Shown: one piece after another, positions 791 to 16,720 of the stretch
Layout: the number at the start of each line of letters is the position of its first letter
Numbering within the stretch: position 1 is the stretch's first letter
Assembly (NCBI GenBank): GCA_009840225.1
Contig: VXOE01000254.1
Span: 1 to 43,964, forward strand
Direction of reading: 5' to 3'
Length of the DNA: 43,964 nt
Origin: Caldilineaceae bacterium SB0662_bin_25
Lineage (GTDB): Bacteria; Chloroflexota; Anaerolineae; Caldilineales; Caldilineaceae
Position numbers and translations under genes: made by a program
The notes under the pieces: model-generated
Databases searched by the model: none
Seen by the model: the letters and a program-made list of their open reading frames with translations, nothing else
What the model was told of the DNA's origin: nothing

Positions 791-1736
791 ACTGAGAGCG
801 TACTAACATCAAGCCACGACTCTCGCTGGCAGGGAATCTGAAAGCGAGGAGGGACCCCTCCCAAGACTGGTAACTGCCCTTTATCAATCTGCCCATAACC
901 TAACGAAGACAGCGAGGAACTGTGCTCGAAGTCGAGCGCAAAAGTCCAAAACATGGATAACTGCCCGGTCTGACCCGACTCAACCCAACCCTAAAGGTCC
1001 AGACACGACACCATGCCCTCCCACCGCCGGCTGTCCGGCATGAGTCTGTCGTCAGCTGGAGTAGTGGATGAGCATCGTAGGGATCTTGCCGGCATCAGGA
1101 ACTGACGGCAGAAACGGAAAAACTAATGCAAAAGCATAACGACAACAAGAACCACATAGAAATCCGCCCGCTTTTGCCCGTCTTTTCCGCTATTTCCGCC
1201 ATTTCCGCCATATTTCCGCCATTTTCCCGCCAATACACGTCGCGCCATTTCAGAACTCGTACAACTCTAGTACAACGTACATTGACACTTGTTCGGACCC
1301 ACCACGCCGGCGAGGCCCTTATCGCAGCCCACCACATAGACTGCATTAGTTGCAGGTCACTCAACAAGTAAACGCTCATAAACTCTCGCCCAACACACAG
1401 ACGAGGAAGCCAGTGACCCACCTTGAAGACTGACAGTCCACGTTGAAAGCAAGGTTCGCATCGGCCCCCAAGGCATATGCATCTCATCTGAGTTTCGTCT
1501 TTTCATCCCAGGCTGATATGCTCCTGACTTCCACCTTCAGACACTTGCGCAAACGGACATGCCCCCTAACCGGCATTCCTGCCAAACGTTACCAAGCCGC
1601 TTGGAAGACTGCCTATCTCCGGAGAGTTCTACCCCATTGAGGTGCAATTGCCCTGGGCAAGCGGTGCCGAAATTGACCCTCTTCTGACCAGAATTAGGCC
1701 AACTTTCCTGGCCTTGACTACGCGAATCTGGGCTCC
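791..1736. other. Non-coding stretch upstream of the first ABC operon
   Basis: About 950 bp without a convincing gene. The short frames here lack ribosome binding sites and protein-like composition. The stretch contains a 9-bp tandem repeat near 1182-1231 and otherwise nothing I can name. It may be decayed mobile-element DNA adjoining the intron remnant. Confidence 0.5.
1182..1231. repeat. Tandem 9-bp repeat, ATTTCCGCC
   Basis: Exact ATTTCCGCC copies lie at 1192-1200, 1201-1209 and 1212-1220. They are flanked by degenerate copies at about 1182-1190 and 1221-1231. It is too short and irregular for CRISPR and lies in non-coding DNA. Confidence 0.75.
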
Positions 1737-1778
1737 GTGGCGTTTGCTTCCTTAACTGATCACACAAAGCAGAAAAAT

Positions 1779-1806
1779 TTGACTGGCGTGCCTTTCATGC
1801 TATACT
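1779..1806 (+). promoter_or_regulatory. Candidate sigma-70 promoter of the Dpp-type ABC operon
   Basis: TTGACT (1779-1784), a 16-bp spacer and TATACT (1801-1806). Transcription would begin near 1813. That is downstream of the most upstream in-frame start of the first permease (1737), which supports a later translation start. Confidence 0.5.
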
Positions 1807-1946
1807 CACGCCGGTTACGCCCCGCCGCCCCTTCGCCCCCGAAGACCGGTAAAGCTGCCGCTAGAGTGGTACTCATGGCGATTTGCTCTTTCCTGGGCGG
1901 GTGCATTCCCAACGACTGTCAAATCTTACGACTGAGATTAGATCCT

Positions 1947-3029
1947 ATGGCGACAGCGGCTGACGTATCCAACGTCAGTACCGGGCGCATCACCAGCCCG
2001 CTTTCCATCCTCGGCGCGATTTGGGGATCCTACTTCTTCCGCAAGTTTCTGCGCGCGCTGGCCACCATCTTCATCGTTACCACCATAATCTTCTTTTTGG
2101 TGCGCCTTCTGCCCGGCAACCCCATTGAAATCTATGTCAACCAGTTAATTGTCACTTACGGCATGCCCGTCCACGAGGCCAAGGACCAGGCCGCCGCTCT
2201 GTTCGCCATCGACCTGGAACAGCCGGTAATTCTCCAATATTTCTCCTACCTGCAAAATCTGGCCAGGGGAAACTTCGGTCAGTCAGTCCTGTCGCCGGGA
2301 ACGACCGTTACCGAGGTGATTTTGCGATTCCTCCCGTGGACACTTTTTAGCGTTGGCCTTGGTCTCCTGATCAGTTTCACAATCGGCGTTCTGTTCGGTG
2401 TCATCATGGCCTACCGCCGCGACAGCTATCTTGATCACGGCCTCACTGTCATTAGTTCTGTGATCAGCTCCGTCCCAGACTTTCTTATCGGCCTTCTCAT
2501 CGTTGTGTGGTTGGGAGTCCAGTGGAAGATCCTGCCGATCGCGGCCATGCGAGGCGCGTACTCATCCGGCATGGTGCCTGGTCTGAATCTGGAATTCTTA
2601 CTCGATGCGTTCTTCCACGGAGCTTTGCCAATCTCTACCTATGTGCTCACCAGCGTCGGCTTTTGGATGCTGAGCATGAAGAGCAACACGATCAGCACTC
2701 TTGGTGAGGACTACGTTACGATTGCCAAAGCGCGCGGCCTGAAGGAGTGGCGCATTACCACCGCCTACGTGGGTCGCAATGCCATCCTGCCCCTTTTCAC
2801 GATCCTTACAATTCGCATCGGCTTTGTCGTCGGAGGTTCATTGTTGGTGGAGCAGATCTTTGAATATGGCGGTATCGGGCGCATGCTCGGCCAGGCCATC
2901 AACCAGCGCGACTATACTTTGATGCAGGGTATCTTCCTCATCATTACTTTCTCAGTGATCTTCGCCAACTTCTTCGCCGACGTCCTGTACGGCTGGCTCG
3001 ACCCCCGTATAAAGCTGCAGGACAATTGA
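1947..3029 (+). CDS. ABC transporter permease, DppB/OppB family
   Basis: This is one of two membrane subunits of a peptide/opine/nickel-type importer. The 360-aa protein has a first membrane segment at about residues 33-52, followed by the family hallmark LVRLLPGNP (PGNP in place of PGDP). A large external loop and five further membrane segments follow. The EAA-like cytoplasmic loop EDYVTIAKARGLKEWR, near residues 250-270, contacts the ATPases. I chose ATG 1947 because the frame upstream of it is not protein-like, a promoter lies inside that extension, and 360 aa is closer to the usual family length (about 310-340). ATG 1875 is an alternative. It heads an operon with a second permease 46 bp downstream, two ATPases and a binding lipoprotein. 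Confidence 0.93.
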   Translation: MATAADVSNVSTGRITSPLSILGAIWGSYFFRKFLRALATIFIVTTIIFFLVRLLPGNPIEIYVNQLIVTYGMPVHEAKDQAAALFAIDLEQPVILQYFSYLQNLARGNFGQSVLSPGTTVTEVILRFLPWTLFSVGLGLLISFTIGVLFGVIMAYRRDSYLDHGLTVISSVISSVPDFLIGLLIVVWLGVQWKILPIAAMRGAYSSGMVPGLNLEFLLDAFFHGALPISTYVLTSVGFWMLSMKSNTISTLGEDYVTIAKARGLKEWRITTAYVGRNAILPLFTILTIRIGFVVGGSLLVEQIFEYGGIGRMLGQAINQRDYTLMQGIFLIITFSVIFANFFADVLYGWLDPRIKLQDN

Positions 3030-3075
3030 GCCTGACCAAAGTGCCAGAATACACACGAAGCGCAGGAGCTGATAG

Positions 3076-3984
3076 ATGACGGCCCAAGTGGCGGATGGCC
3101 AGCAAACCGATAGCATCTTGGTCAGCGCATGGAAAGGATTCCGAACTGGGGTACGCCTCCTTGCCTACAATCGGGTTGGTTTTATCGGTTTCCTCGTCGT
3201 GGTCTTCATGGTCCTCCTCTCCTACGCGGGCCCATTAATCATCGAACTGGATACCAAGACCAAGATCGACAGGATCTATATAACGCCGACACTTGAACAT
3301 CCTTTGGGTACCGATCATCAGGGCCGCGACATCTGGTCCCAGATCGTCAACGGCGGCAAAGACGTGATCTACGTTGCCTTTCTGGCTGCCCTTATTTCAA
3401 CCGTAATCGCGGTCGTTTTTGGCACGCTTAGCGGTTTCATAGGCGGTTGGCTGGACAGCGCCATCATGTCTGTCACCGATATAATACTTACGATCCCTCA
3501 GTTCCCACTCTTGGCGGTCCTGGCGGCCTTTATCTCTCTGAACAGCTTGACCTTGCTGGGGGTCTTGATGGGTCTGCTGAACTGGCCGACGCTCTTGCGC
3601 GCGTTGCGGGCCCAGGCACTCTCCCTCAAACAGCGAGATTTCATTGAGGCGGCCAGGGCGCTGGATCTGGGCGTTATGCATATCGTCCTGCGCGAAATGG
3701 TCCCCAACATGATGCCCTACATTGTAGTCAGCTTCGCCTTGGGCATGACCTTTGCCGTCTATCAGCAGGCGGGACTCGTCTTCCTCGGCCTCGTGCCGAT
3801 AAGCGCTGGCAACTGGAGCGTGATGATTCAACTGGCGTGGGTACGAGGAGCGATCTTCTACAAGGACAGTGTCTGGTACATTATGGCGCCGATCGTCGCC
3901 ATCGCCATTCTTCAGCTGGCAATCATTTCCATGACCCGCTCGCTTGAGCTTGTATTCAATCCTCGACTGCGGGCCAGTGAATAG
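3076..3984 (+). CDS. ABC transporter permease, DppC/OppC family
   Basis: Second membrane subunit of the Dpp/Opp-type importer, 302 aa. A short cytoplasmic N-terminus leads to a membrane segment at about residues 30-55. The family's post-TM1 signature follows (HPLGTDHQGRDIWSQIV), then five more membrane segments. The EAA loop RDFIEAARALDLGVMHIVLR is clear. A good Shine-Dalgarno AGGAG (3064-3068) sits 7 nt before the ATG. The gene follows the DppB-type permease and precedes the ATPase by 21 bp, as in canonical dpp operons. Length and motifs are normal for the family. Confidence 0.95.
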   Translation: MTAQVADGQQTDSILVSAWKGFRTGVRLLAYNRVGFIGFLVVVFMVLLSYAGPLIIELDTKTKIDRIYITPTLEHPLGTDHQGRDIWSQIVNGGKDVIYVAFLAALISTVIAVVFGTLSGFIGGWLDSAIMSVTDIILTIPQFPLLAVLAAFISLNSLTLLGVLMGLLNWPTLLRALRAQALSLKQRDFIEAARALDLGVMHIVLREMVPNMMPYIVVSFALGMTFAVYQQAGLVFLGLVPISAGNWSVMIQLAWVRGAIFYKDSVWYIMAPIVAIAILQLAIISMTRSLELVFNPRLRASE

Positions 3985-4005
3985 GAATCCGTTCCCTGGA
4001 TACAT

Positions 4006-5103
4006 ATGAGTCAGATCACTGATCTTTCCTGGCATCAGGAAATTGAAGAAAACGACAGCCTGCCCCCGCTGAGCCTGCAGAACGTTCATGTCAACTATCG
4101 TACGCGCAAGGGCAGCGTCCAGGCGGTCAGAGGTGTCACGCTCGACTTGCAGGCAGGTGAAAGCCTGGCCCTGATCGGAGAGAGCGGCTCCGGCAAAACG
4201 ACGTTGGGACTGGGAATCGTACGTCTCTTGGTCGAAACCGCGGAAGTCAGCCCAGGGGAAATTATCTATCGCCGCGATGGCCGTGAGTTGGATGTGCTTT
4301 CCCTTGCCGAAGGTCCCCTTCGCGAGTTCCGCTGGCGCGACTGCGCTATGGTATTCCAGTCGGCCCTCAACGCGTTCAATCCCGTGCTGAAGGTTTGGGA
4401 CCAGGTTTGGGATACGGCGAAAGCCCACAGGTGGAACAATCGCGAGGAGGTCCGCGAGCGGTTTCTCGATCTGCTTCGCTTTGTGCAGTTGGATCCTGAC
4501 CGTGTTATCAACGCCTACGCCCATGAGTTGAGTGGGGGCATGCGCCAGCGAACGCTTCTGGCCATAGCACTTCTGTTGGACCCCCAGATTCTGATTCTGG
4601 ACGAGCCGACAACTGCGTTGGACATCCTCACGCAGAGGACGATCATCGATCTGTTGCGCCGGCTGAAGGAAGACCTGCACTTCACAATGCTCTTCATCTC
4701 GCACGACCTTGCCATCGCCGCTGAGCTGGCAGACAGAGTAGCCACGATGTACGCCGGGCAGGTCGTCGAGCTGGGGCCGGTCGAGGACATCTTCTATCGC
4801 CCGCGTCATCCCTATTCCCTGGGTCTGATCCGGGCCGTGCCGACCGTAACTGGTGGTTTTGAGGAACTCTCCTCGATACCCGGTTCTCCTCCCGACCTGA
4901 TCAATTTGCCGACTGGATGCAAATTCCATCCGCGCTGCCCCTTTGCCAGCGAGCGCTGCAGTAGCGAGGAACCGGGGTTGGAGCGGGTCGGCGACAATCA
5001 CTACGCGGCCTGCTGGCACACCGATGCAGTGCAGGAGGACATCGAGCGCAGCGGGCTGAGAGGCAAGAGGAGTACGCAAAGGGAACGTGCTACCGGCCTG
5101 TAA
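4006..5103 (+). CDS. ABC transporter ATP-binding protein, DppD/OppD family
   Basis: First of two cytoplasmic ATPases energising the importer, 365 aa. It has Walker A GESGSGKTT near residue 64, signature LSGGMRQR, Walker B ILDEPTTALD and the switch histidine in LFISHDLAI. The C-terminal oligopeptide/dipeptide transporter extension carries GCKFHPRCPFASERC; in this subfamily the cysteines of this region can coordinate an iron-sulfur cluster (family knowledge). The ribosome binding site is weak, with no strong purine run in the 21-bp gap, so translation may be coupled to the upstream permease. The product should pair with the second ATPase encoded 43 bp downstream. Confidence 0.95.
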   Translation: MSQITDLSWHQEIEENDSLPPLSLQNVHVNYRTRKGSVQAVRGVTLDLQAGESLALIGESGSGKTTLGLGIVRLLVETAEVSPGEIIYRRDGRELDVLSLAEGPLREFRWRDCAMVFQSALNAFNPVLKVWDQVWDTAKAHRWNNREEVRERFLDLLRFVQLDPDRVINAYAHELSGGMRQRTLLAIALLLDPQILILDEPTTALDILTQRTIIDLLRRLKEDLHFTMLFISHDLAIAAELADRVATMYAGQVVELGPVEDIFYRPRHPYSLGLIRAVPTVTGGFEELSSIPGSPPDLINLPTGCKFHPRCPFASERCSSEEPGLERVGDNHYAACWHTDAVQEDIERSGLRGKRSTQRERATGL

Positions 5104-5146
5104 TCCCGTGAGGAAACAGGGGCGCGGCCAGTGGAGGCCGCATTAG

Positions 5147-6175
5147 ATGACGCCGATTCTCGAACTTCGGAACGTAACGAAATATTTTGGCAGCGGCCGC
5201 GAGCGCGTGACGGCCGTTGACTCGATCTCCCTCGACATTGAACCTGGCGAAATCGTTTGCCTCGTCGGTGAAAGCGGTTGCGGCAAGAGCACCACCGGCC
5301 GCATGGTCGTCGGCCTGCTGCCACCGTCCGAAGGACAGATTCTCTACCAGGGACAGGATATCGCGTCAATGGAAAAGGCCGACTATCAGCAGTACCGGCG
5401 CGCGGTCCAGATCATCCATCAGGATCCCTACGCCTCTCTCAATCCAACCCAGACAGTGCGCCAGATGATCACGACGCCACTCTTGCGCCATCAAACACAG
5501 GGAACGGGTCAGAATGGAGCGAGCGCTGGCCGGAGGGGTCGCCGCCGCGACGCAGGGCGGCGGGCTGCCGAACTGTTGGAAATCGTCGATCTGACGCCGG
5601 TTTCGGACTTTCTCGACAAGTATCCTCACCAGCTGAGCGGTGGTCAGCGCCAGCGCGTTTCGGTAGCCAGGGCTTTGACCGTGGAGCCTAAGTTCATCGT
5701 CGCCGACGAAGCCGTCTCAATGGTGGATGTGTCAATTCGAGTGAGCCTGCTCAACATGCTCTACCGGCTGAAAGACGAGTTTGACGTAACCTTCCTCTTC
5801 ATCACACACGACCTGGCGCTGGCGAAATACTTTGCCTGGGAAGGGCGAATCACTGTCATGTACCTGGGGCGCATTGTGGAAGAAGGGCCTACGCCCCGTC
5901 TCATCACCGATTCGCGCCACCCTTATACGCAGGCGCTTCTGGGAGCTGTTCCCGAAGCCGATCCGGAGTTGGCAAAGAAGAAAGTCCATATTGAACTGCG
6001 CAGCGCCGAAATTCCCAGCCTTTTGAATCTGCCTACAGGGTGTACTTTTCACCCGCGTTGTCCTTACTTTGTGCCGGGGGAATGCGACTTAGCCGTCCCT
6101 GGGTTGGAACAGATCTCAGATGGGGGCAGTGTAGCCTGCCCCGTTCGCATGGCGGAGCCGAGCCAGATTGTTTGA
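5147..6175 (+). CDS. ABC transporter ATP-binding protein, DppF/OppF family
   Basis: Second ATPase of the Dpp-type importer, 342 aa. Walker A is GESGCGKST, the signature LSGGQRQR, and the switch histidine lies in LFITHDLAL. The C-terminal GCTFHPRCPY extension is typical of the family. Walker B reads VADEAVSMVDVSIR: the Asp-Glu pair is intact but the usual proline after it is alanine and the D-loop is VSMVD rather than TSALD. Between Q-loop and signature there is a basic, low-complexity insertion of about 20 residues (Gly/Arg/Ala-rich, near residues 120-142), probably a surface loop. GGAGG about 10 nt upstream supports the ATG. Confidence 0.94.
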   Translation: MTPILELRNVTKYFGSGRERVTAVDSISLDIEPGEIVCLVGESGCGKSTTGRMVVGLLPPSEGQILYQGQDIASMEKADYQQYRRAVQIIHQDPYASLNPTQTVRQMITTPLLRHQTQGTGQNGASAGRRGRRRDAGRRAAELLEIVDLTPVSDFLDKYPHQLSGGQRQRVSVARALTVEPKFIVADEAVSMVDVSIRVSLLNMLYRLKDEFDVTFLFITHDLALAKYFAWEGRITVMYLGRIVEEGPTPRLITDSRHPYTQALLGAVPEADPELAKKKVHIELRSAEIPSLLNLPTGCTFHPRCPYFVPGECDLAVPGLEQISDGGSVACPVRMAEPSQIV

Positions 6176-6234
6176 AGGGAAGGATCGCCGCCGACCCGCT
6201 CCGCTTTGGTGGTTAAAGGCACAGCAGGAACGAC

Positions 6235-6426
6235 ATGGATCCCTTCCTTGGTAGGGCGGCATTTCACATCGGGTTCTACATAGCCTTCGTTGCCGGCGCG
6301 CTACTGATCTTCTTGGAGAAAGGAACCGCCGAATACGTCATCACTCAGTTTACACTGGGGATTGGGCTTGTATATCTACTGTTGGTTGTAATTCTTGTGC
6401 AATGGGGGAAGAAAAGAGAGAGGTAA
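6235..6426 (+). CDS. Small two-TM membrane protein in the ABC operon
   Basis: A 63-aa protein with two hydrophobic segments, at about residues 12-28 and 36-56, and a basic C-terminus (GKKRER). Both ends would therefore be on the cytoplasmic side, or the N-terminus outside if the first segment is only partial. It lies 59 bp after the second ATPase and 97 bp before the binding-protein gene, with CAGGA about 7 nt before the ATG, so it belongs to the transporter transcript. I do not recognise a family. It may be an accessory subunit or a stabiliser of the permease pair; this is inference from position only. Confidence 0.7.
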   Translation: MDPFLGRAAFHIGFYIAFVAGALLIFLEKGTAEYVITQFTLGIGLVYLLLVVILVQWGKKRER

Positions 6427-6523
6427 GCAATAGAGGCAAGCGTATTTGATGCGCCCCTGCGCGTGGCTCACTCTTCATCTCCCTGCTATCTCACATTCTC
6501 AATTGTCCTAAGGAGGATAAAGA

Positions 6524-8347
6524 ATGAACCGAAGATTTTGGCTTGTAATTGCTCTGATTGCGGCCTTGGCCATCAGCGCGTGCGGCGCGCCGGCGGCCGA
6601 TATGGGCGGCGGCGAGGCCGCTCCGGCCGCTGCGGAGGAAGAGGCAGCTCCGGCAGGAACCGGCGTAGCTGAGTTCCATCCGGCCTGGCCCTACGCGCCA
6701 CCCCCCACGGGCCACTTCAACACCTGGGTTACGAACGGCATGACCCTTGGCATCTACCGCGCCCTGATGGAACCGCCCTTGTTCATGTTCCTGTGGGCCG
6801 ATGGCAGCTGGATGCCGGTAGCCGGGGAGTCCTGGGAATGGGTCGACGACGTCACCTTGCGCGTCAACCTGATCCAGGAGGCCCAGTGGAGTGACGGCAG
6901 CGCCTTCACTTCACAGGACGTTGTCGACACCTTCTCGATCTCCCGCCTGCTCAGCCAGACGGTCTGGCGCTTCCTCGACGACGTGCAGGCCGTGGATGAT
7001 CACACCGTCGACTTCCTTCTCAGCGGTCCTTCCACGACCGTTCCCCGACGTGTACTGCGCGAGGTACATATCACGGCCTCCTCGGTCTATGGCGACTTTG
7101 CCCAGCGCACTCGCGATCTGGTCGAGGCCGGCATGACCAATGAAGACGACGAATGGAAGCAGTTGCTGCAGGAGTTCAACGAGCTGCGCCCGGACGAAAT
7201 GGTCGTTCTGGGGCCTTATGCGATCGACCCTGCCAGCATCACCGAGTCCCAGATGATTCTCAACAAGGTCGAGACTTCCTACTGGGCTGATACTGTGCGC
7301 TTCGAACGCATGGTCAACTACAACGGTGAAACGCCGGTGGTTACGCCGCTCGTCCTCTCCGGCGACGTCGACTACGCTACGCACGGCTTCCCGCCCGCTA
7401 CCGAGCGCGAGTTCATGTCTCTGGGCTACCGCATCATCCGCGCCCCCATCTACAGCGGCCCGGCACTCTATTTCAACCACACCATCTATCCCTTCAACGT
7501 AAGAGAAGTGCGTCAGGCCTTGGCCTACGCCATCAACTTTGAAGAGAACGCCTATATCTCGCTGGCCGAATCGGGCGTGGCCCAAGAGTGCATGTGCGGT
7601 TTCTCAGACAACATTACGCCCCTGTGGCTCAGTGACGATGCGCGCGCCAGCTTGGATCCCTACACCCAAGATCTGGAAAAGGCGGAGCAGATGTTGCTCG
7701 ACATCGGTTTCACTCGCGCCGACGACGGTGTCTGGGTTGACGACACCGGCGCCCGCATGGAGTGGGAACTGACCGCGCCGGCCGAGTACGCCGACTGGTC
7801 GGCCGCTGCTGAGAACGTGGCCGAGCAGTTGACTGCTTTCGGATTCCAGACCAGTTTCCGCGGCGTGAACTTCCAGCAACATCCGATCGATGTGAATGAA
7901 GGCAAGTTCCAGCTCGCAATTCGCGGTTGGGGCGCGGGCAATCCGCACCCGTCCTTCTCCTATGAGAATGACTTCAGCACACACAACGCCGCCGCCACGG
8001 GCGTGGGCGCATCGGGCGCTGGCAGCATCGAACTGCCCGGCATGTCCTTCGACCTGAACGTCAGCACCAGCAGCGTTGGCGACGTCGACCTGTGGGCGCT
8101 GACCAAGGAGGCCGGCTCCGGCGGTGACGCCGCCATGCAGATCGCGGCGCTCGACAAGATCGCCATGGCCTACAACGAGCTGCTGCCGCAGATTCCCCTT
8201 TGGGAACGCTACGGCAATAACCCGGTCCCCAGTCGCTTTGCCAGTGGTTGGCTGCCCGAAGGCGACCCGATCTACGTCAACAGCCCCTACGCCGACTCCT
8301 TCGTCGTCATCCAGATTCTGACCGGACAGCTTGGCCCGGCGGAATAG
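6524..8347 (+). CDS. Extracellular solute-binding lipoprotein, family 5 (SBP_bac_5)
   Basis: Substrate-capturing component of the Dpp/Opp-type importer, 607 aa. The signal peptide ends in lipobox ISAC, giving a lipid-anchored Cys at residue 20, followed by an Ala/Glu-rich flexible linker to about residue 45. The body shows family 5 features: W...PP.T.H.NTW, an RVNLIQEAQWSDGSAFTSQD stretch like the conserved 'kWsDG.p.ta.D' region, and the helix VREVRQALAYAINFE. AAGGAGG lies about 7 nt before the ATG. Being last in the transporter operon is compatible with extra expression from its own transcript. The ligand (peptide, oligosaccharide or other) cannot be read from sequence. Confidence 0.95.
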   Translation: MNRRFWLVIALIAALAISACGAPAADMGGGEAAPAAAEEEAAPAGTGVAEFHPAWPYAPPPTGHFNTWVTNGMTLGIYRALMEPPLFMFLWADGSWMPVAGESWEWVDDVTLRVNLIQEAQWSDGSAFTSQDVVDTFSISRLLSQTVWRFLDDVQAVDDHTVDFLLSGPSTTVPRRVLREVHITASSVYGDFAQRTRDLVEAGMTNEDDEWKQLLQEFNELRPDEMVVLGPYAIDPASITESQMILNKVETSYWADTVRFERMVNYNGETPVVTPLVLSGDVDYATHGFPPATEREFMSLGYRIIRAPIYSGPALYFNHTIYPFNVREVRQALAYAINFEENAYISLAESGVAQECMCGFSDNITPLWLSDDARASLDPYTQDLEKAEQMLLDIGFTRADDGVWVDDTGARMEWELTAPAEYADWSAAAENVAEQLTAFGFQTSFRGVNFQQHPIDVNEGKFQLAIRGWGAGNPHPSFSYENDFSTHNAAATGVGASGAGSIELPGMSFDLNVSTSSVGDVDLWALTKEAGSGGDAAMQIAALDKIAMAYNELLPQIPLWERYGNNPVPSRFASGWLPEGDPIYVNSPYADSFVVIQILTGQLGPAE

Positions 8348-11044: not shown

Positions 11045-11830
11045 GTGAAGAATTCCTCAGATACTCAGGAGTTGCTTGAGCGGCTCAATCGTGATGGCTA
11101 CATTCTCATTCCCAGTGCACTGTCTGCGGAACGAGTAGAACAGTGGAAGACGGTCCTGTACGCACTCTACGACCGCGGCGCCTACGAGATAAGTAACGGC
11201 GTGGGCAACGTTGCCTTCGAGAAGTTGCTTGCCTTGGAGCCGGAATTGGCGGGCGAGCTCGTGGGGCACGAAAGCGTTGCCCCATTCCTGCATGCCGTCA
11301 TGGGTAAGCAATGCCAGTTGCGCAGCCTGCGCGCCCACGTCAACCCTGCCGCCTATTTGCAGGAGTGGCACATGGACTTCTACGACTTCTACTATCAGGA
11401 AGAGAAAGCGGAGGCACAGAATCCCACGCGCGGCCTTTGCGTCAATTCGACCTTCTATCTGACCGACAACACGCCTGAGCGTGCCCGTCTTACTTTCGTC
11501 AAGAACTATCTGGATCGCCCGGTACCGGAAGAGTTGATTCCTTTCCTGCGCTACACAGAAGATCGGAGCGACCCGTTCCAGCGCTGGTGCGACGAGCAGG
11601 AGTTGGAGCATCTGCACCCGATGGCCGGCGATGCAGTCGTCTTCTACAGCCACATCCCCCACCAGGGGGCCAAGATAGGACCGGATCCGGAAGGCGAGAT
11701 CCGCGCCAATATCGTGCTCCACTACCAGCAGAATCCCATGTTCCCCGGCATCAAGTTCGTCAGCAATCCCCAGTTCACTCTTGAAACTCTGGGTTATGCA
11801 GGCACTTTCCCATTTGCCGATCAAGAATGA
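11045..11830 (+). CDS. Phytanoyl-CoA dioxygenase (PhyH) family protein
   Basis: Second predicted Fe(II)/2-oxoglutarate oxygenase, 261 aa. The N-terminal region reads LLERLNRDGYILIPSALSAERVEQW, as in the family. The metal motif is His-x-Asp in EWHMDFYDF, the distal His lies in HIPHQGAK, and the 2-oxoglutarate Arg is probably in EIRANIVLHY. I prefer the GTG at 11045 because GCAAGGA lies about 7 nt before it and the upstream extension of 24 residues is basic and unlike the family. It lies between the oxidoreductase and the binding protein of the sugar importer; its stop is 44 bp before the next start. It probably hydroxylates or oxidatively cleaves the imported compound (inference). Confidence 0.9.
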   Translation: MKNSSDTQELLERLNRDGYILIPSALSAERVEQWKTVLYALYDRGAYEISNGVGNVAFEKLLALEPELAGELVGHESVAPFLHAVMGKQCQLRSLRAHVNPAAYLQEWHMDFYDFYYQEEKAEAQNPTRGLCVNSTFYLTDNTPERARLTFVKNYLDRPVPEELIPFLRYTEDRSDPFQRWCDEQELEHLHPMAGDAVVFYSHIPHQGAKIGPDPEGEIRANIVLHYQQNPMFPGIKFVSNPQFTLETLGYAGTFPFADQE

Positions 11831-11874
11831 CGGCATTAACGACACAGTTCAGTCAGAACGAAAGGAAGGAACTG

Positions 11875-13605
11875 ATGAAACCTTACCGAACTATCCTCGG
11901 CCTGGTTCTTCTGATTTCACTTGTCCTCCTGGCGGCTTGCGGCGCCCCCGCAGAAGGCGGGATGGCGGCTGAAGAAGCTCCAGCGCCCGAAGAGGCCGCG
12001 GCCGACGACGAAGTGGTCGAAATCGAGGAAACCGAGGAAGAGGCGATGGAGATGAGCGGCGAAATTGTCGTTAGCATCGCCTCTAACGACGTCCAGACCT
12101 ATCAGGCGATTGCTGACGCCTACATGGAGTTGCACCCGGACGTGAGCGTCCTGGTTGAGCTCAAGGCGCCCGGCGTCGATGCTTATCTGCAGTGGATTCG
12201 CACGCAGTTCACCTCTGAAGTGCCGCGCGTGTCCATCATCGAGTCGCCCCATCTGCGCGAATTTGCCCAGGAAGGACGGCTGGTAGACTGGGGCCCCTAC
12301 CTCAACAAGGTGAATCCCTACACGGGCGAAAAATGGGAGAACAGCTTTGAAACGTGGGGCCTGAATCTGGTGCGCGACCCCAATACGGGCCAGATGTTCA
12401 CGATGCCTTACATGTCCGTCCAGACTTTCTGGCTCTACAACAAGGCTCTCTTCGAACAGGCCGGGATCACTGATGTACCACCGCAGCCGACTTGGGATCA
12501 GTTTGTCGAGTGGAACGAAAAGCTGCGAGACTCGGGCGTCATTCCGATTGCAATGGAAGGCACCACCGAGCAGATCTGGGGCGGCGGTCGCATGCCTTGG
12601 CTGATGCGTTCAGCGATGGACCAGTACCATCGTGATGAACTGCAGATCATACAATGCCAGGAAGGAGACTGGTGCTTCCGCGAAGGCATTGATGACACAT
12701 GGTCATACGATCCCACCGACGTGCGCAATGACGATCCCGACCGCGTCTCCGTCAATATTGCTCGCCATCTGGCCGCCTTGCGCGACGGCGAAATCAATTT
12801 CAATAACGATTGTACCGTTGAAATGATGACCAACATCGGACGCGTCTTCCAGACGGCAAACGGATTCGTACCCGAAGGTTGGACGGGCATGACCGACGCA
12901 TATCCTCTCTTCCTGACGCAGAAGGCGGCAATGCGTATGGTTCACGGCGGCATCTACACCAGCCTGCCCAAGGACATTCGTGCACTTGCCCAAGGTGAGT
13001 ATGGCGGTCAGGCCGAAGTTACAGAAGAGGACTCAGCCGCTGCAGTCGAGTTTGAGTACGGTCGCTTCGCATTTCCCAACATCGAGGGCCCCTGTGTTCA
13101 GGGAACCGCACGTGCCAACGAATTGACTCAGGGCTACCTGGCTCTGCCCCTGAAGGACCGAGCCCAGAACGACTTGGAAGTTGACTTTGTAATGTTCTGG
13201 ACCAGCCCCCAGGGTATGCAGATCTTCCTGGAAAACAAGCTTGATCCCGAAAACCTGCAGGGTGGTATCGCCGGTCCGCCGTTGATCAGGAACGTGACGC
13301 TTCCCGGCGAATGGGAAGAAGTATTCGCCCAGAGCGTTTTCGTCGGCAACTATGAAAAGCCAGGCGCGCCCGGAGACGCCGTCGCACGCGGCTTCTTCAA
13401 GTACGAAGAGACCAAACGAGAATGGTCGATCATGGTTCAGGAGTTCTTCGAAGGCAAGATTACTGCCGAACAATTCGCGGAAAGCTACCAGGCCCTTCTC
13501 GAAGACAACTTTGACGGCCTGTTGGAGTATCTCAACCTGACACACGAAGACCTCGACAGTCCCGAGAAACGACCCCCCGGTTGGGTCGCGGCCGGACCGT
13601 ACTAA
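11875..13605 (+). CDS. Extracellular solute-binding lipoprotein, family 1 (SBP_bac_1)
   Basis: Sugar-type binding protein of 576 aa. The signal peptide ends in lipobox LLAAC, followed by a long acidic linker (Glu/Ala-rich to about residue 60). The mature fold begins GEIVVSIASNDVQTYQAIADAY, with family 1 elements such as the hinge region MFTMPYMSVQTFWLYNKALFEQAGI and PTWDQFVEWNEKLRDSG. ATG 11875 was chosen over the longer frame because AAGGAAGGAACTG lies immediately upstream and the signal peptide starts there. It is longer than typical maltose-type binding proteins (about 400-450 aa) because of the linker and internal insertions. It pairs with the two downstream permeases; no ATPase is encoded nearby, so a shared MsmX-like ATPase elsewhere is likely. 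Confidence 0.94.
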   Translation: MKPYRTILGLVLLISLVLLAACGAPAEGGMAAEEAPAPEEAAADDEVVEIEETEEEAMEMSGEIVVSIASNDVQTYQAIADAYMELHPDVSVLVELKAPGVDAYLQWIRTQFTSEVPRVSIIESPHLREFAQEGRLVDWGPYLNKVNPYTGEKWENSFETWGLNLVRDPNTGQMFTMPYMSVQTFWLYNKALFEQAGITDVPPQPTWDQFVEWNEKLRDSGVIPIAMEGTTEQIWGGGRMPWLMRSAMDQYHRDELQIIQCQEGDWCFREGIDDTWSYDPTDVRNDDPDRVSVNIARHLAALRDGEINFNNDCTVEMMTNIGRVFQTANGFVPEGWTGMTDAYPLFLTQKAAMRMVHGGIYTSLPKDIRALAQGEYGGQAEVTEEDSAAAVEFEYGRFAFPNIEGPCVQGTARANELTQGYLALPLKDRAQNDLEVDFVMFWTSPQGMQIFLENKLDPENLQGGIAGPPLIRNVTLPGEWEEVFAQSVFVGNYEKPGAPGDAVARGFFKYEETKREWSIMVQEFFEGKITAEQFAESYQALLEDNFDGLLEYLNLTHEDLDSPEKRPPGWVAAGPY

Positions 13606-13761
13606 ATTTGAAGTGTTGGACTGGGTCTCCGCCCAGTGAGACGGAGGCGATGTACAAGCCTTCAAGTACCAACGTATATGGGTTTGTCAAGACACCGGAC
13701 GTCCAGAAAGAGACGAACATTTCATACTAGATCAGGCACGCCGCTCTCGAAAGGGAGCGGC
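13606..13761 (+). promoter_or_regulatory. Structured leader between binding-protein and permease genes
   Basis: The gap holds two hairpins: ACTGGG/CCCAGT (about 13619-13636, 6-nt loop) and a strong 9-bp stem GCCGCTCTC/GGGAGCGGC (13740-13761) with a GAAA tetraloop of the GNRA type. The second lies directly before the likely start of the permease and could contain its ribosome binding site (GGGAG). Such structures commonly let a binding protein be made in excess over its permeases; here that is inference. Confidence 0.5.
13650..13730 (+). CDS. Possible 26-aa leader peptide
   Basis: ATG 13650 is preceded by ACGGAGG at good spacing (the SD is better than any for the larger overlapping frame) and runs 26 codons to TAG 13728-13730. 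It begins MYKPSSTNVYGF. It ends ten bases before the GNRA hairpin at 13740. It could be a translated leader coupling or controlling the propeller-permease gene, or a chance frame. I recognise no family. Confidence 0.3.
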   Translation: MYKPSSTNVYGFVKTPDVQKETNISY

Positions 13762-15780
13762 TTGTCTGGTTTGCGGTTCAGAAGGTCCGCAGCGCCGCTG
13801 TGGCGGGCTGGCGGCGCGATCGCGATCGCCGCCGCAATTTTGCTGGCCATCACTTTGCCCCTTTCGGCACAGTCTCCTGAAGGGTTGCTGTGGGAGCATG
13901 TTGCAGACAGTCGCGTTCAGGCCGTCGCCGTTTCGGAAGACGGGTCGCTCGTTGCCGTTGGCAGCCGTGACAACTCTCTGCGACTGTTTGACGCACGCGG
14001 CCAGTTGCTCTGGTCGTTCGAGGCCGAAAACAGCATTCTCGGCTTGGACATGTCGCCGGATGGGCGGTGGATCGCGGTTGCCTCAGAAGATCGCCATATC
14101 TTTCTTCTGGACGGTGACGGCTCCGAACTGTGGAAGTTCAAAGCAGCCCGCCCAATGAACAATGCTGCAGTAGCCAGAGACGGGTCACTGGTCACAGCCA
14201 CTTCCGATGACCGGACGGTCTACGTTTTCGACAACAACGGCAACCTGCTTTGGCAGGAGGAACTAGGCATCGGAGTTCGGGCTGTCGACATCTACGGGAG
14301 CGCCGAAAAAGCCCGTCTTGTATTGGGCTCCGACGACGGGCTCATCACGATTTACAGCCGCGAAGGCAGAAACCTGCTCCAAATACGGCTTGACTACAAC
14401 GTGATTTCCGTTTCCGTGACCCCAAACGGCGCCCGCGTCTTGGCTGGCACAGGTGATGGCTCGGCCATTCTACTTAATGGAGCAAATGGAAGGGAGATTT
14501 GGCGATTCAGGGCCGAAGACTCTGTTAGCAGCGTCTCGCTGGCCGGTGACGGGTCCAGCGCCCTGATCGGCTCAGAGGACGGGAGCGCATATCTGCTGGA
14601 CGGCGACGGCAACCTGACTCACCAGTTCAGGCAAGAATCCGAGGTTCTGAGCGTTAGCTTGGCTGGCGACGGCAACAGCCTTTCCGTTGGGGCAGTCTCC
14701 GGTTCGGCGAGAGTCTACGATCGAGCCGCGGCGTTGAGTGGGGCCGCCCGTTCATCAGCCCAGCGCCAGCGAACGCTGCTGGCGGTTATCAGCGCGATCG
14801 TGTTGCTCATCCTTGCAGCGGTCTGGGCCGCTCGCAACACCGCGGCTGGGCAGCAGGCCTGGCAGCGCAGTGCAGCCGGGCCTGTCGGCGTGCTGCAGAC
14901 AATGTGGAGCGCCCGTCTCTCCTATCTGCTCATCCTGCCAACTCTGGCCCTCCTTCTTACCTTCAACTACTACCCCGCCTTCTCCGGCCTCTATCACGCC
15001 TTCACCGACTGGAGCCCAGGCGTACGCACCGAATGGGTGGGCTTGGCAAACTTCCAGTCACTGATGGATAATCGCTTCTTCCTTTCAGGCTTCCGCAATG
15101 CCGCTATCCTGGTCGTCGTATCCATTGCAAAAACGATGACCATGCCGCTTCTTGTGGCGGAATTCATCTTTAACCTGCGCAACAGATTCTCCCAGTATTG
15201 GTTTCGCACACTGTTTGTCGTGCCAATCGTGCTGCCCGCAGTAGTAGAGATCCTCGTCTGGAATAACATCTACGATCCCGCCATCGGCCTCCTTAACGAG
15301 AGCCTCAAGCTGGTGGGTCTGGAAGAGTTCACACGCGTCTGGTACGGTGACGCCAGCGTCGCCCTTGGCTCCATTATCTTTATCGGCGTGCCCTGGGTGA
15401 ACGCCTTCGCACTGCTCATCTTCTACGGCGGCCTCATCTCCATCTCCAACGAAATCATCGACGCAAGTCTCGTCGACGGGGCCAGCACATGGAGGCGCTT
15501 CTGGAGTATCGATCTGCCCCTGCTCATGGGCCAGGTCAAGCTGCTCCTCATCCTCAACTTCATCAACGCTGTCCAGACCTTTGAGCTTGTATTCCTGACG
15601 ACCGGCGGCGGTCCCGGAGCGGCCACCTACACGCCCGCTCTTGAACTCTACTACAAGGCGATGCGAATGGATCGCATGGGAATCGCATCAGCGATTGGAA
15701 TGATTCTATTTATCATAATCCTTGCAGGCACAGTGATTAATATGCGTTTTGTCAGCTCCGCGACCGAGTATGAGGCCTGA
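13762..15780 (+). CDS. Seven-bladed beta-propeller fused to MalF-type ABC sugar permease
   Basis: Two-part protein of about 672 aa. A signal sequence or anchor (residues 1-38, hydrophobic 19-34, then LPLSAQS) leads to seven tandem repeats of about 40 residues (about 41-327). Each has the pattern 'LLW.f.....v..v.vs.DG..v..GS.D....lfd..G', typical of WD40/PQQ-like propeller blades. A membrane segment follows (about 342-360, VISAIVLLILAAVWAA), then a complete six-TM permease (about 380-672) with EAA loop NEIIDASLVDGASTWRRFWSIDLPLL. Topology places the propeller outside the cell, beside the binding lipoprotein. TTG 13762 is my choice because GGGAG precedes it and residues upstream are not protein-like; GTG 13636 or ATG 13678 are possible. 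The permease part is standard; the fusion is unusual. It should pair with the MalG-type permease that starts at 15782. Confidence 0.85.
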   Translation: MSGLRFRRSAAPLWRAGGAIAIAAAILLAITLPLSAQSPEGLLWEHVADSRVQAVAVSEDGSLVAVGSRDNSLRLFDARGQLLWSFEAENSILGLDMSPDGRWIAVASEDRHIFLLDGDGSELWKFKAARPMNNAAVARDGSLVTATSDDRTVYVFDNNGNLLWQEELGIGVRAVDIYGSAEKARLVLGSDDGLITIYSREGRNLLQIRLDYNVISVSVTPNGARVLAGTGDGSAILLNGANGREIWRFRAEDSVSSVSLAGDGSSALIGSEDGSAYLLDGDGNLTHQFRQESEVLSVSLAGDGNSLSVGAVSGSARVYDRAAALSGAARSSAQRQRTLLAVISAIVLLILAAVWAARNTAAGQQAWQRSAAGPVGVLQTMWSARLSYLLILPTLALLLTFNYYPAFSGLYHAFTDWSPGVRTEWVGLANFQSLMDNRFFLSGFRNAAILVVVSIAKTMTMPLLVAEFIFNLRNRFSQYWFRTLFVVPIVLPAVVEILVWNNIYDPAIGLLNESLKLVGLEEFTRVWYGDASVALGSIIFIGVPWVNAFALLIFYGGLISISNEIIDASLVDGASTWRRFWSIDLPLLMGQVKLLLILNFINAVQTFELVFLTTGGGPGAATYTPALELYYKAMRMDRMGIASAIGMILFIIILAGTVINMRFVSSATEYEA

Positions 15781-15781
15781 C

Positions 15782-16720
15782 ATGGTGACGATGCGAGAAG
15801 GTCAGGGGACAGAGAGAAACGCGTCAGTCGCAACCCGCGCCGAAAGCGGCGAAGGGACCGGCCAGCCAATTCTCTCCTCGGGCTCTGCCTTTGCAATTCT
15901 CCGCTTGAGCGGCACCCAGTTCTTGCTCTATACCGTCTTGCTCGTTCTACTGATCGTTACCTTCATCCCTATCGTATATCTGGTGGCTCTCTCACTTAAG
16001 GACAACGGTCAGATCTACGGGCGTTTCTGGTCTATGCCCGATCCCTACCGCTGGGAAAACTTCGCGCTGGGCTCGCTGGCCATCTGGCGGGCGGTTCTGA
16101 ACTCGATTCTGACGTCCGGAAGTTCGACGGCTGCGACCGTCGTGCTCGCCAGCCTCAGCGGTTATGTTTTTGCACGGCACCGGTTTCCCGGCAAGGAGAT
16201 GATCTATACGGGAATCCTCGCCCTGCTGATGATCCCGCCGATTCTGACACTAATCCCCGCCTACGTTCTCATCCTCAATATGGGCTTGGAAAACACCTAC
16301 TGGGCGCTCATTTTGCCGTGGACATCGGGCGGCCAGGTCTTTGCACTGCTGCTATGCCGCAGCTTTTTCGCCACCTTGCCGGAGGAGTTTTTCGATGCCG
16401 CGCGCATCGACGGCGCCAGTGAGCTTCAGAGCTTCGCCAGAATCGCGGTACCGCTTTCCGCGCCGATCCTGGTGACGGTGGCAGTAGTTAGACTCGTCAC
16501 TACCTACAATCAGTTCATGTGGCCCCTGGTCGTTATCTCCAGCCCGAAACGCCAGGTCGTTGCCGTGGCCCTGACCCAGTTCACCTCCGAGATCGGCGTC
16601 ACCGATCTCGGCCCGCAGATGGCCGGTTACATCCTGGCGTCGGTTCCCCTGATCGTCCTGTTTTCCTTCGGCATGAGACACTATGTGCGGGGTCTGACCG
16701 CCGGTGGTCTGAAAGCCTAG
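15782..16720 (+). CDS. ABC sugar transporter permease, MalG family
   Basis: Second membrane subunit of the family 1 importer, 312 aa. A cytoplasmic N-terminus of about 45 residues leads to the first membrane segment (FLLYTVLLVLLIVTFIPIVYLVALSL). The typical MalG loop about the size of a small periplasmic domain and four to five further segments follow. The EAA motif is EEFFDAARIDGASELQSFARIAVPL. The ATG at 15782 begins just after the upstream stop (15778-15780), with TGAGG 6-7 nt before it, giving tight coupling to the propeller-permease gene. Together the two permeases should form the channel; the ATPase is not encoded here. Confidence 0.94.
   Translation: MVTMREGQGTERNASVATRAESGEGTGQPILSSGSAFAILRLSGTQFLLYTVLLVLLIVTFIPIVYLVALSLKDNGQIYGRFWSMPDPYRWENFALGSLAIWRAVLNSILTSGSSTAATVVLASLSGYVFARHRFPGKEMIYTGILALLMIPPILTLIPAYVLILNMGLENTYWALILPWTSGGQVFALLLCRSFFATLPEEFFDAARIDGASELQSFARIAVPLSAPILVTVAVVRLVTTYNQFMWPLVVISSPKRQVVAVALTQFTSEIGVTDLGPQMAGYILASVPLIVLFSFGMRHYVRGLTAGGLKA

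Follow-up and report, generated by a model that had tools for sequence, protein, structure and literature searches.

A single open reading frame at positions 13762..15780 (+ strand) of the window, by which we mean the whole stretch of 43,964 nucleotides analysed, encodes a 672-aa protein that is best read as a sugar ABC permease subunit of the MalF type carrying a seven-bladed propeller at its N-terminus. The fusion is conserved, and its propeller may serve as a docking platform for the solute-binding protein (SBP) encoded next door, a role to which we give about an even chance.

Architecture of the Fusion Protein

The order of signal peptide, propeller, transmembrane (TM) tether and six-TM permease is near certain. 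The initial annotation of this DNA had described a one-frame fusion of a seven-bladed propeller and a MalF-type permease, and this is borne out by profile searches and by the predicted structure; the WD40/PQQ and the BPD_transp_1 profiles both scored above cut-off on the protein. The predicted signal peptide covers residues 1-36 (13762..13869, +) with a likely SPase I site (LSA|Q). It was recognized by eye and by a simple pattern, which matched in 66 of the 75 rows with at least 25 N-terminal residues, group-B rows included. The WD40/PQQ-like propeller follows at residues 42-325 (13885..14736, +), with repeats starting at residues 42, 82, 122, 162, 204, 245, and 285, and seven four-stranded blades could be counted in its predicted structure. 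It reached 83.4 bits with the WD40 profile (cut-off 27) and 70.5 bits with PQQ_2 (cut-off 27.6). The lambda-carrageenase propeller profile PF25292 gave an unspecific match (37.1 vs. 26.8 bits), with no single stretch past the reporting limit, as the cut-offs of ANAPC4_WD40, Vps41, WDR19, and DUF5711, which are unrelated propeller families, were exceeded as well.

A helix directly after the last strand, at residues 321-359 (14722..14838, +), is predicted to form the TM tether of the propeller, and the MalF/UgpA-type permease core with its six TMs occupies residues 373-672 (14878..15777, +). The BPD_transp_1 match lies at residues 463-656 (46.0 bits vs. a cut-off of 26.4), and an EAA-type coupling motif, EIIDASLVDGASTWRRFWSIDLPLL (EIIDASLVDGA...IDLPLL), was read from the sequence at residues 564-588 (15451..15525, +) following the familiar EAA consensus. 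About 285 residues predicted to be extracytoplasmic precede the permease core. The signal peptide and the TM pattern thus predict a propeller outside the cytoplasm, in support of the earlier suggestion that it sits at the outer face. In the full-length model (pTM 0.53) the permease blocks had pLDDT values of 32-81 and the propeller was not placed on the permease, while the VIA lists are filled by the propeller, hence contain no ABC permease and are uninformative on the permease fold. A scan of 13600-15800 for tandem DNA repeats gave one trivial 15-base match, so the blades do not appear to be a fresh DNA duplication. Scanning for promoters and terminators showed no excess over shuffles.

Several residues outside the repeat pattern are conserved, namely N71, E109-D110-R111 in the b-c loop of blade 2 (14086..14094, +), S142, and Y178-G179 and R185 in the long a-b loop of blade 4 (14293..14316, +). 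Blades 2-4 vary least within the propeller, and its outer strands and d-a loops are strongly variable. Mean loop entropies were 1.30 bits for b-c, 1.36 for a-b, 1.87 for c-d, and 2.05 for d-a, and no single face stood out by entropy when the top and the bottom face were compared. The dN/dS values between the window and seven relatives were 0.09-0.15 for the propeller, 0.02-0.04 for the permease and 0.19-0.46 for the signal peptide, and four pairs formed among the relatives, leaving the window aside, gave 0.08-0.19 for the propeller and 0.01-0.03 for the permease. As dS approaches saturation in several of the pairs, all these values are rough. They support purifying selection on the propeller, which evolves faster than the permease.

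Importer Class and Partner Subunits

The best reading of the fusion is that of the MalF-type subunit of a CUT1 carbohydrate ABC importer, as suggested by the permease core, the EAA motif, the adjoining SBP and second permease, and a UgpC-type ATPase in the genome. The CUT1 systems MalFGK2, UgpAEC, and LpqY-SugABC have the permease core, the MalG-type partner, the SBP and the UgpC-type ATPase in common with the fused system. Relatives in the PDB (7cad, 2r6g, and 8ja7) matched residues ~365-657 of the fusion with their best stretches. Across the PDB matches, the best stretches of the chains span either the propeller or the permease and never both.

Directly upstream lies the gene of an SBP_bac_1 lipoprotein (11827..13605, +; 592 aa as called). 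Its LAAC lipobox at residue 35 makes the ATG at 11875 (residue 17) the likely start, and its closest solved relative is the arabino-oligosaccharide-binding protein 6rjy. A MalG/UgpE-type permease is encoded directly downstream (15749..16720, +; start codon uncertain). The UgpC-type ATPase (L121) is encoded outside the operon, passes NF008653 (467.5 bits vs. 432) and could energise the fused importer. In the window's genome, the assembly of which is ~95% complete, the query gave 90 matches at E<=1e-3, almost all of which fall in its permease region, and only two TOBE_2 ATPases were found, L121 being the one that is UgpC-type above cut-off. Given dozens of permeases and two such ATPases, a single UgpC-type ATPase is likely shared by dozens of sugar importers of this genome. 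Separately, a different sugar permease (P0190, 603 aa) was observed to have at its N-terminus ~380 other residues that match no Pfam profile, and permeases may thus have gained ectodomains more than once.

Distribution and Origin of the Fusion

Our analysis revealed the fusion without internal stops in all 17 sampled genomes of the genus and a fused copy in at least 28 of the 396 sampled genomes of the class, belonging to six families. In addition, a divergent fused branch, modelled with the same 28-strand wheel, reaches cultured Paenibacillus. The initial annotation had considered the fusion likely to be functional, and its conservation in these genomes agrees with that view. It had also named an artefactual join, or occurrence in a single genome, as the alternative; an assembly or sequencing join is ruled out, as 20 of 20 matches are free of internal stops and close relatives are fused too. 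A tblastn search of plasmids with the Paenibacillus protein returned 14 records, none of them covering at least 80% of the query, and the best places cover 36-53% of it, mostly in the permease part.

Permease trees were built from 228 domains, which filtering at 85% identity reduced to 49 rows. Both careful trees left out three long-branch unfused rows, and the second one also omitted twelve clade-A rows and included 21 additional group-B search matches. All fused proteins fell into a clade together with an unfused pair that belongs to another class (G153 and G241), with supports of 99/95 and 100/98. Constraining the fused proteins to group together cost 1.5 log units in the smaller set (AU p 0.188) and nothing in the larger (AU p 0.485), and the fused rows formed one group in 0% and 50%, respectively, of 200 bootstrap trees. 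In the smaller-set tree the unfused pair (f49) stood beside group B (98/79). A single ancient fusion is allowed by these trees, and independent repeated fusions, which are possible, are not needed by them; the unfused pair may be an outgroup or, given its position beside group B and the 0% bootstrap value, may reflect a loss of the propeller or two gains. No separate propeller gene was found among the four neighbours scanned of the unfused sister locus L057. Among the four scanned at the other unfused sister, L058, a BNR/Sortilin-type protein is encoded ~0.9 kb upstream of the SBP, and it was not accepted as a split form of the fusion.

Gene Context

The operon had been regarded as conserved-looking in the initial annotation, which is true of three genes: the order SBP, fused permease and MalG was observed in every fetched fused locus reaching far enough (L075 starts inside the fused gene, so no SBP is visible), while the rest of the operon varies by lineage. 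The 16 closest named loci (L009-L024, 75-86% identity) share both Gfo/Idh/MocA oxidoreductases and the sugar-isomerase-like TIM barrel with the window. L012 and L013 lack the second PhyH dioxygenase between Gfo1 and the SBP gene, and in L016-L018 it is only partly matched. Neighbours in other lineages include a sulfatase (L025 and L084), GH116 (L056), a GH140-like, i.e., apiosidase-like, protein (L084), a GH141-type beta-helix (L076), and GHL6 (L078). The family and this changing gene context suggest that the substrate would be a carbohydrate or polyol, and it probably differs among lineages.

Just upstream of the PhyH/Gfo operon, positions 1737-8347 of the window read as an oligopeptide-type ABC importer, with two permeases and two ATPases recognized by eye and an SBP_bac_5 protein by profile. 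Most of the related loci compared also have an SBP_bac_5 relative upstream; in L019 it is split over the overlapping frames 1725-3650 and 3268-3633, owing to a frameshift or an assembly error.

A Solute-Binding Protein Subfamily Linked to the Fusion

The SBP belongs to a subfamily of large proteins (~550-600 aa). Insertion 1, at approximately residues 268-311 (12628..12759, +), is found in this subfamily beside fused and unfused permeases alike and is shorter or absent in ordinary SBPs. Loop 2, at approximately residues 384-407 (12976..13047, +), is longer where the propeller-permease is present. It was surveyed in 114 SBP-profile matches, 76 of which had enough coverage and 45 of which were unique. 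Between fixed anchors, all 37 rows that adjoin a fused permease had a loop of 48-58 residues, compared with 36 in the unfused sister pair L057/L058 (four rows, two genes) and 30 in two ordinary SBPs (L034 and L070); these rows are not independent, as overlapping loci repeat genes and many come from one genus.

At E<=1e-60 the SBP subfamily was found in 29 of 386 genomes of the class, with three candidates scored per genome, and 28 of the 29 also have the fused permease; this co-occurrence is partly built in, because the profile used (A3) comprises 11 SBPs beside fused permeases and two others, and the samples of 396 and 386 genomes are not identical. The 29th genome (G454) has a truncated SBP (L118 5299-6435) with no permease in 8 kb, perhaps a relic of a lost system. 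In the other class, the SBP was found in 2 of 29 genomes, both of them those of the unfused pair. Judged from these searches, the SBP subfamily is a marker of the fused permease within the class. In one genome (G136) a fused permease was found once and SBPs of the subfamily three times, two of them at C4 and the third, which is more divergent, at C11. The extra SBP behind the MalG of the triad (L056 12235-13977) has a loop 2 of 55 residues and that on another contig (L120 4245-5930), with no permease within 10 kb, one of 56. A third such SBP (L119, genome G423) was just under the coverage filter and is outside the loop-2 counts.

Possible Roles of the Propeller

Docking is our best guess, given the close association with one SBP subfamily and the difference in loop 2. 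The MalF subunit would display the propeller as a docking platform for the SBP, a proposal that we consider evenly balanced between right and wrong. The propeller would be exported and anchored through blade 7, on which both ends of the domain should lie, as WD40 topology places them there and the signal peptide and the tether would attach at that point. The wheel would hang from this one blade beside the permease, at the outer face and next to the translocation path, where it would dock and orient the large SBP, partly via the longer loop 2, and so do for the fused importer what MalF-P2 does for E. coli MalF. The position of the SBP gene directly upstream and of MalG directly downstream, while other neighbours change, also argues for docking, as do the purifying selection on the propeller, the UgpC-type ATPase and the contact of MalF-P2 with MalE. 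However, SBPs of this subfamily, insertion 1 included, are also found in the unfused pair L057/L058 and thus work without a propeller, and the loop-2 contrast amounts to roughly a single evolutionary event, which counts against docking. The partly built-in co-occurrence, a conservation pattern that favours no single face and a full-length model that does not place the propeller on the permease weigh against it too. The initial annotation had listed holding the binding protein among several roles, and we infer that this one fits best; after docking we would rank substrate capture, sensing, a spacer function and enzymatic activity, in that order.

The propeller could instead be a second substrate-capturing module, which binds an oligo- or polysaccharide at the cell surface and either hands it on to the SBP or holds the cell close to its food source. 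The sulfatases and the GH116, GH140, GH141-type and GHL6 proteins adjoining fused systems would fit such a possible but doubtful role, as would the charged and polar loop residues N71 and E109-D110-R111 and, weakly, the PF25292 score. However, this match is unspecific, as unrelated propeller families pass too, the SBP already binds substrate, the outer strands and d-a loops of the propeller vary strongly, and no glycoside hydrolase was found among the window's eight scanned neighbours.

It is unlikely that the propeller is a sensor reporting the state of the substrate or the envelope to a regulator, or gating transport. A divergent histidine kinase gene lies upstream of the SBP in all three family-f3 group-B loci (L076-L078), with a response-regulator gene further upstream in L076 and a PAS kinase downstream in L078. 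Extracellular propellers pair with two-component systems elsewhere: LpqB does so with MtrAB, and the gene of a seven-bladed lipoprotein accompanies those of a two-component system (PMC13068155). Nevertheless, no kinase was found among the window's eight scanned neighbours or among four scanned genes in the vicinity of the group-B loci L072/L073, and a profile scan of the fusion protein found no signalling domain.

Chloroflexota and Paenibacillus are not known to have a classic outer membrane. The occurrence of the fusion in both could suggest a structural spacer or assembly scaffold, which raises the docking site of the SBP through a thick wall or brings transporters together but does not specifically recognize the SBP, and the faster evolution of the propeller relative to the permease would agree with this. 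We consider this role quite improbable, as the conserved non-repeat residues N71, E109-D110-R111, Y178, and R185 exceed what a spacer needs. Finally, an enzyme on the transporter, either a PQQ-dependent oxidoreductase or the lyase suggested by the initial annotation, is very improbable: the PQQ-like repeat signature and the PF25292 match, the latter unspecific and all that a lyase could draw on, are outweighed by seven blades vs. the eight of PQQ dehydrogenases and by 30.9 bits vs. a cut-off of 480 with the NCBIfam PQQ alcohol dehydrogenase profile, and a PQQ-dependent dehydrogenase was rejected.

Returning to docking, a tentative extension, which we hold to be possible though doubtful, is that of a modular ABC importer in which one permease serves as a docking hub for several SBPs and uses the ATPase shared genome-wide. 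This reading is based on the genome with one fused permease and three SBPs of the subfamily, all three measured with a long loop 2.

Relation to Known Systems and Significance

The nearest functional parallel of the propeller would be MalF-P2 (residues 91-271), which contacts the binding protein MalE (PMC3150292). Both are large extracytoplasmic domains on a MalF subunit. MalF-P2, which has a different fold, is inserted into the permease behind the first TMs; the propeller, unlike it, forms a WD40-type wheel at the N-terminus and has a signal peptide and a tether of its own. In GlnPQ and OpuA importers the SBP itself is fused to the permease subunit, and these share with our fusion the covalent joining of an extracellular domain to a permease. 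Assignment to this type was rejected, since the fused domain is a propeller and the SBP is a separate lipoprotein encoded next door. The seven-bladed WD40 fold is in common with WD40 propellers, PkwA among them, and with the structures 5yzv and 2ymu, and in sequence the propeller resembles BamB models and the membrane-kinase propeller 7eq5, which we take to be AfsK-like. Those propellers are parts of kinases or of an outer-membrane assembly factor, whereas the window's propeller is on an importer. In databases the fusion goes by names such as 'ABC-type sugar transport system permease subunit/outer membrane protein assembly factor BamB', and BamB identity was rejected, as the curated cut-offs were missed (79.8 vs. 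285.2; 30.8 vs. 423). The parts are known and their combination is already visible in databases; a published description of the propeller-permease fusion was not found in the open-licence PMC literature.

A central question in the study of ABC importers is how an SBP finds its permease and is released from it, and large permease ectodomains are a main handle on it. The propeller is a new type of ectodomain on a permease, conserved in parts of Chloroflexota, and its presence in cultured Paenibacillus makes it open to genetics. If the fused permease is a docking hub, it would help to explain how parts are shared in a genome with dozens of sugar permeases and an apparently single UgpC-type ATPase, and would provide a platform on which recruitment can be studied.
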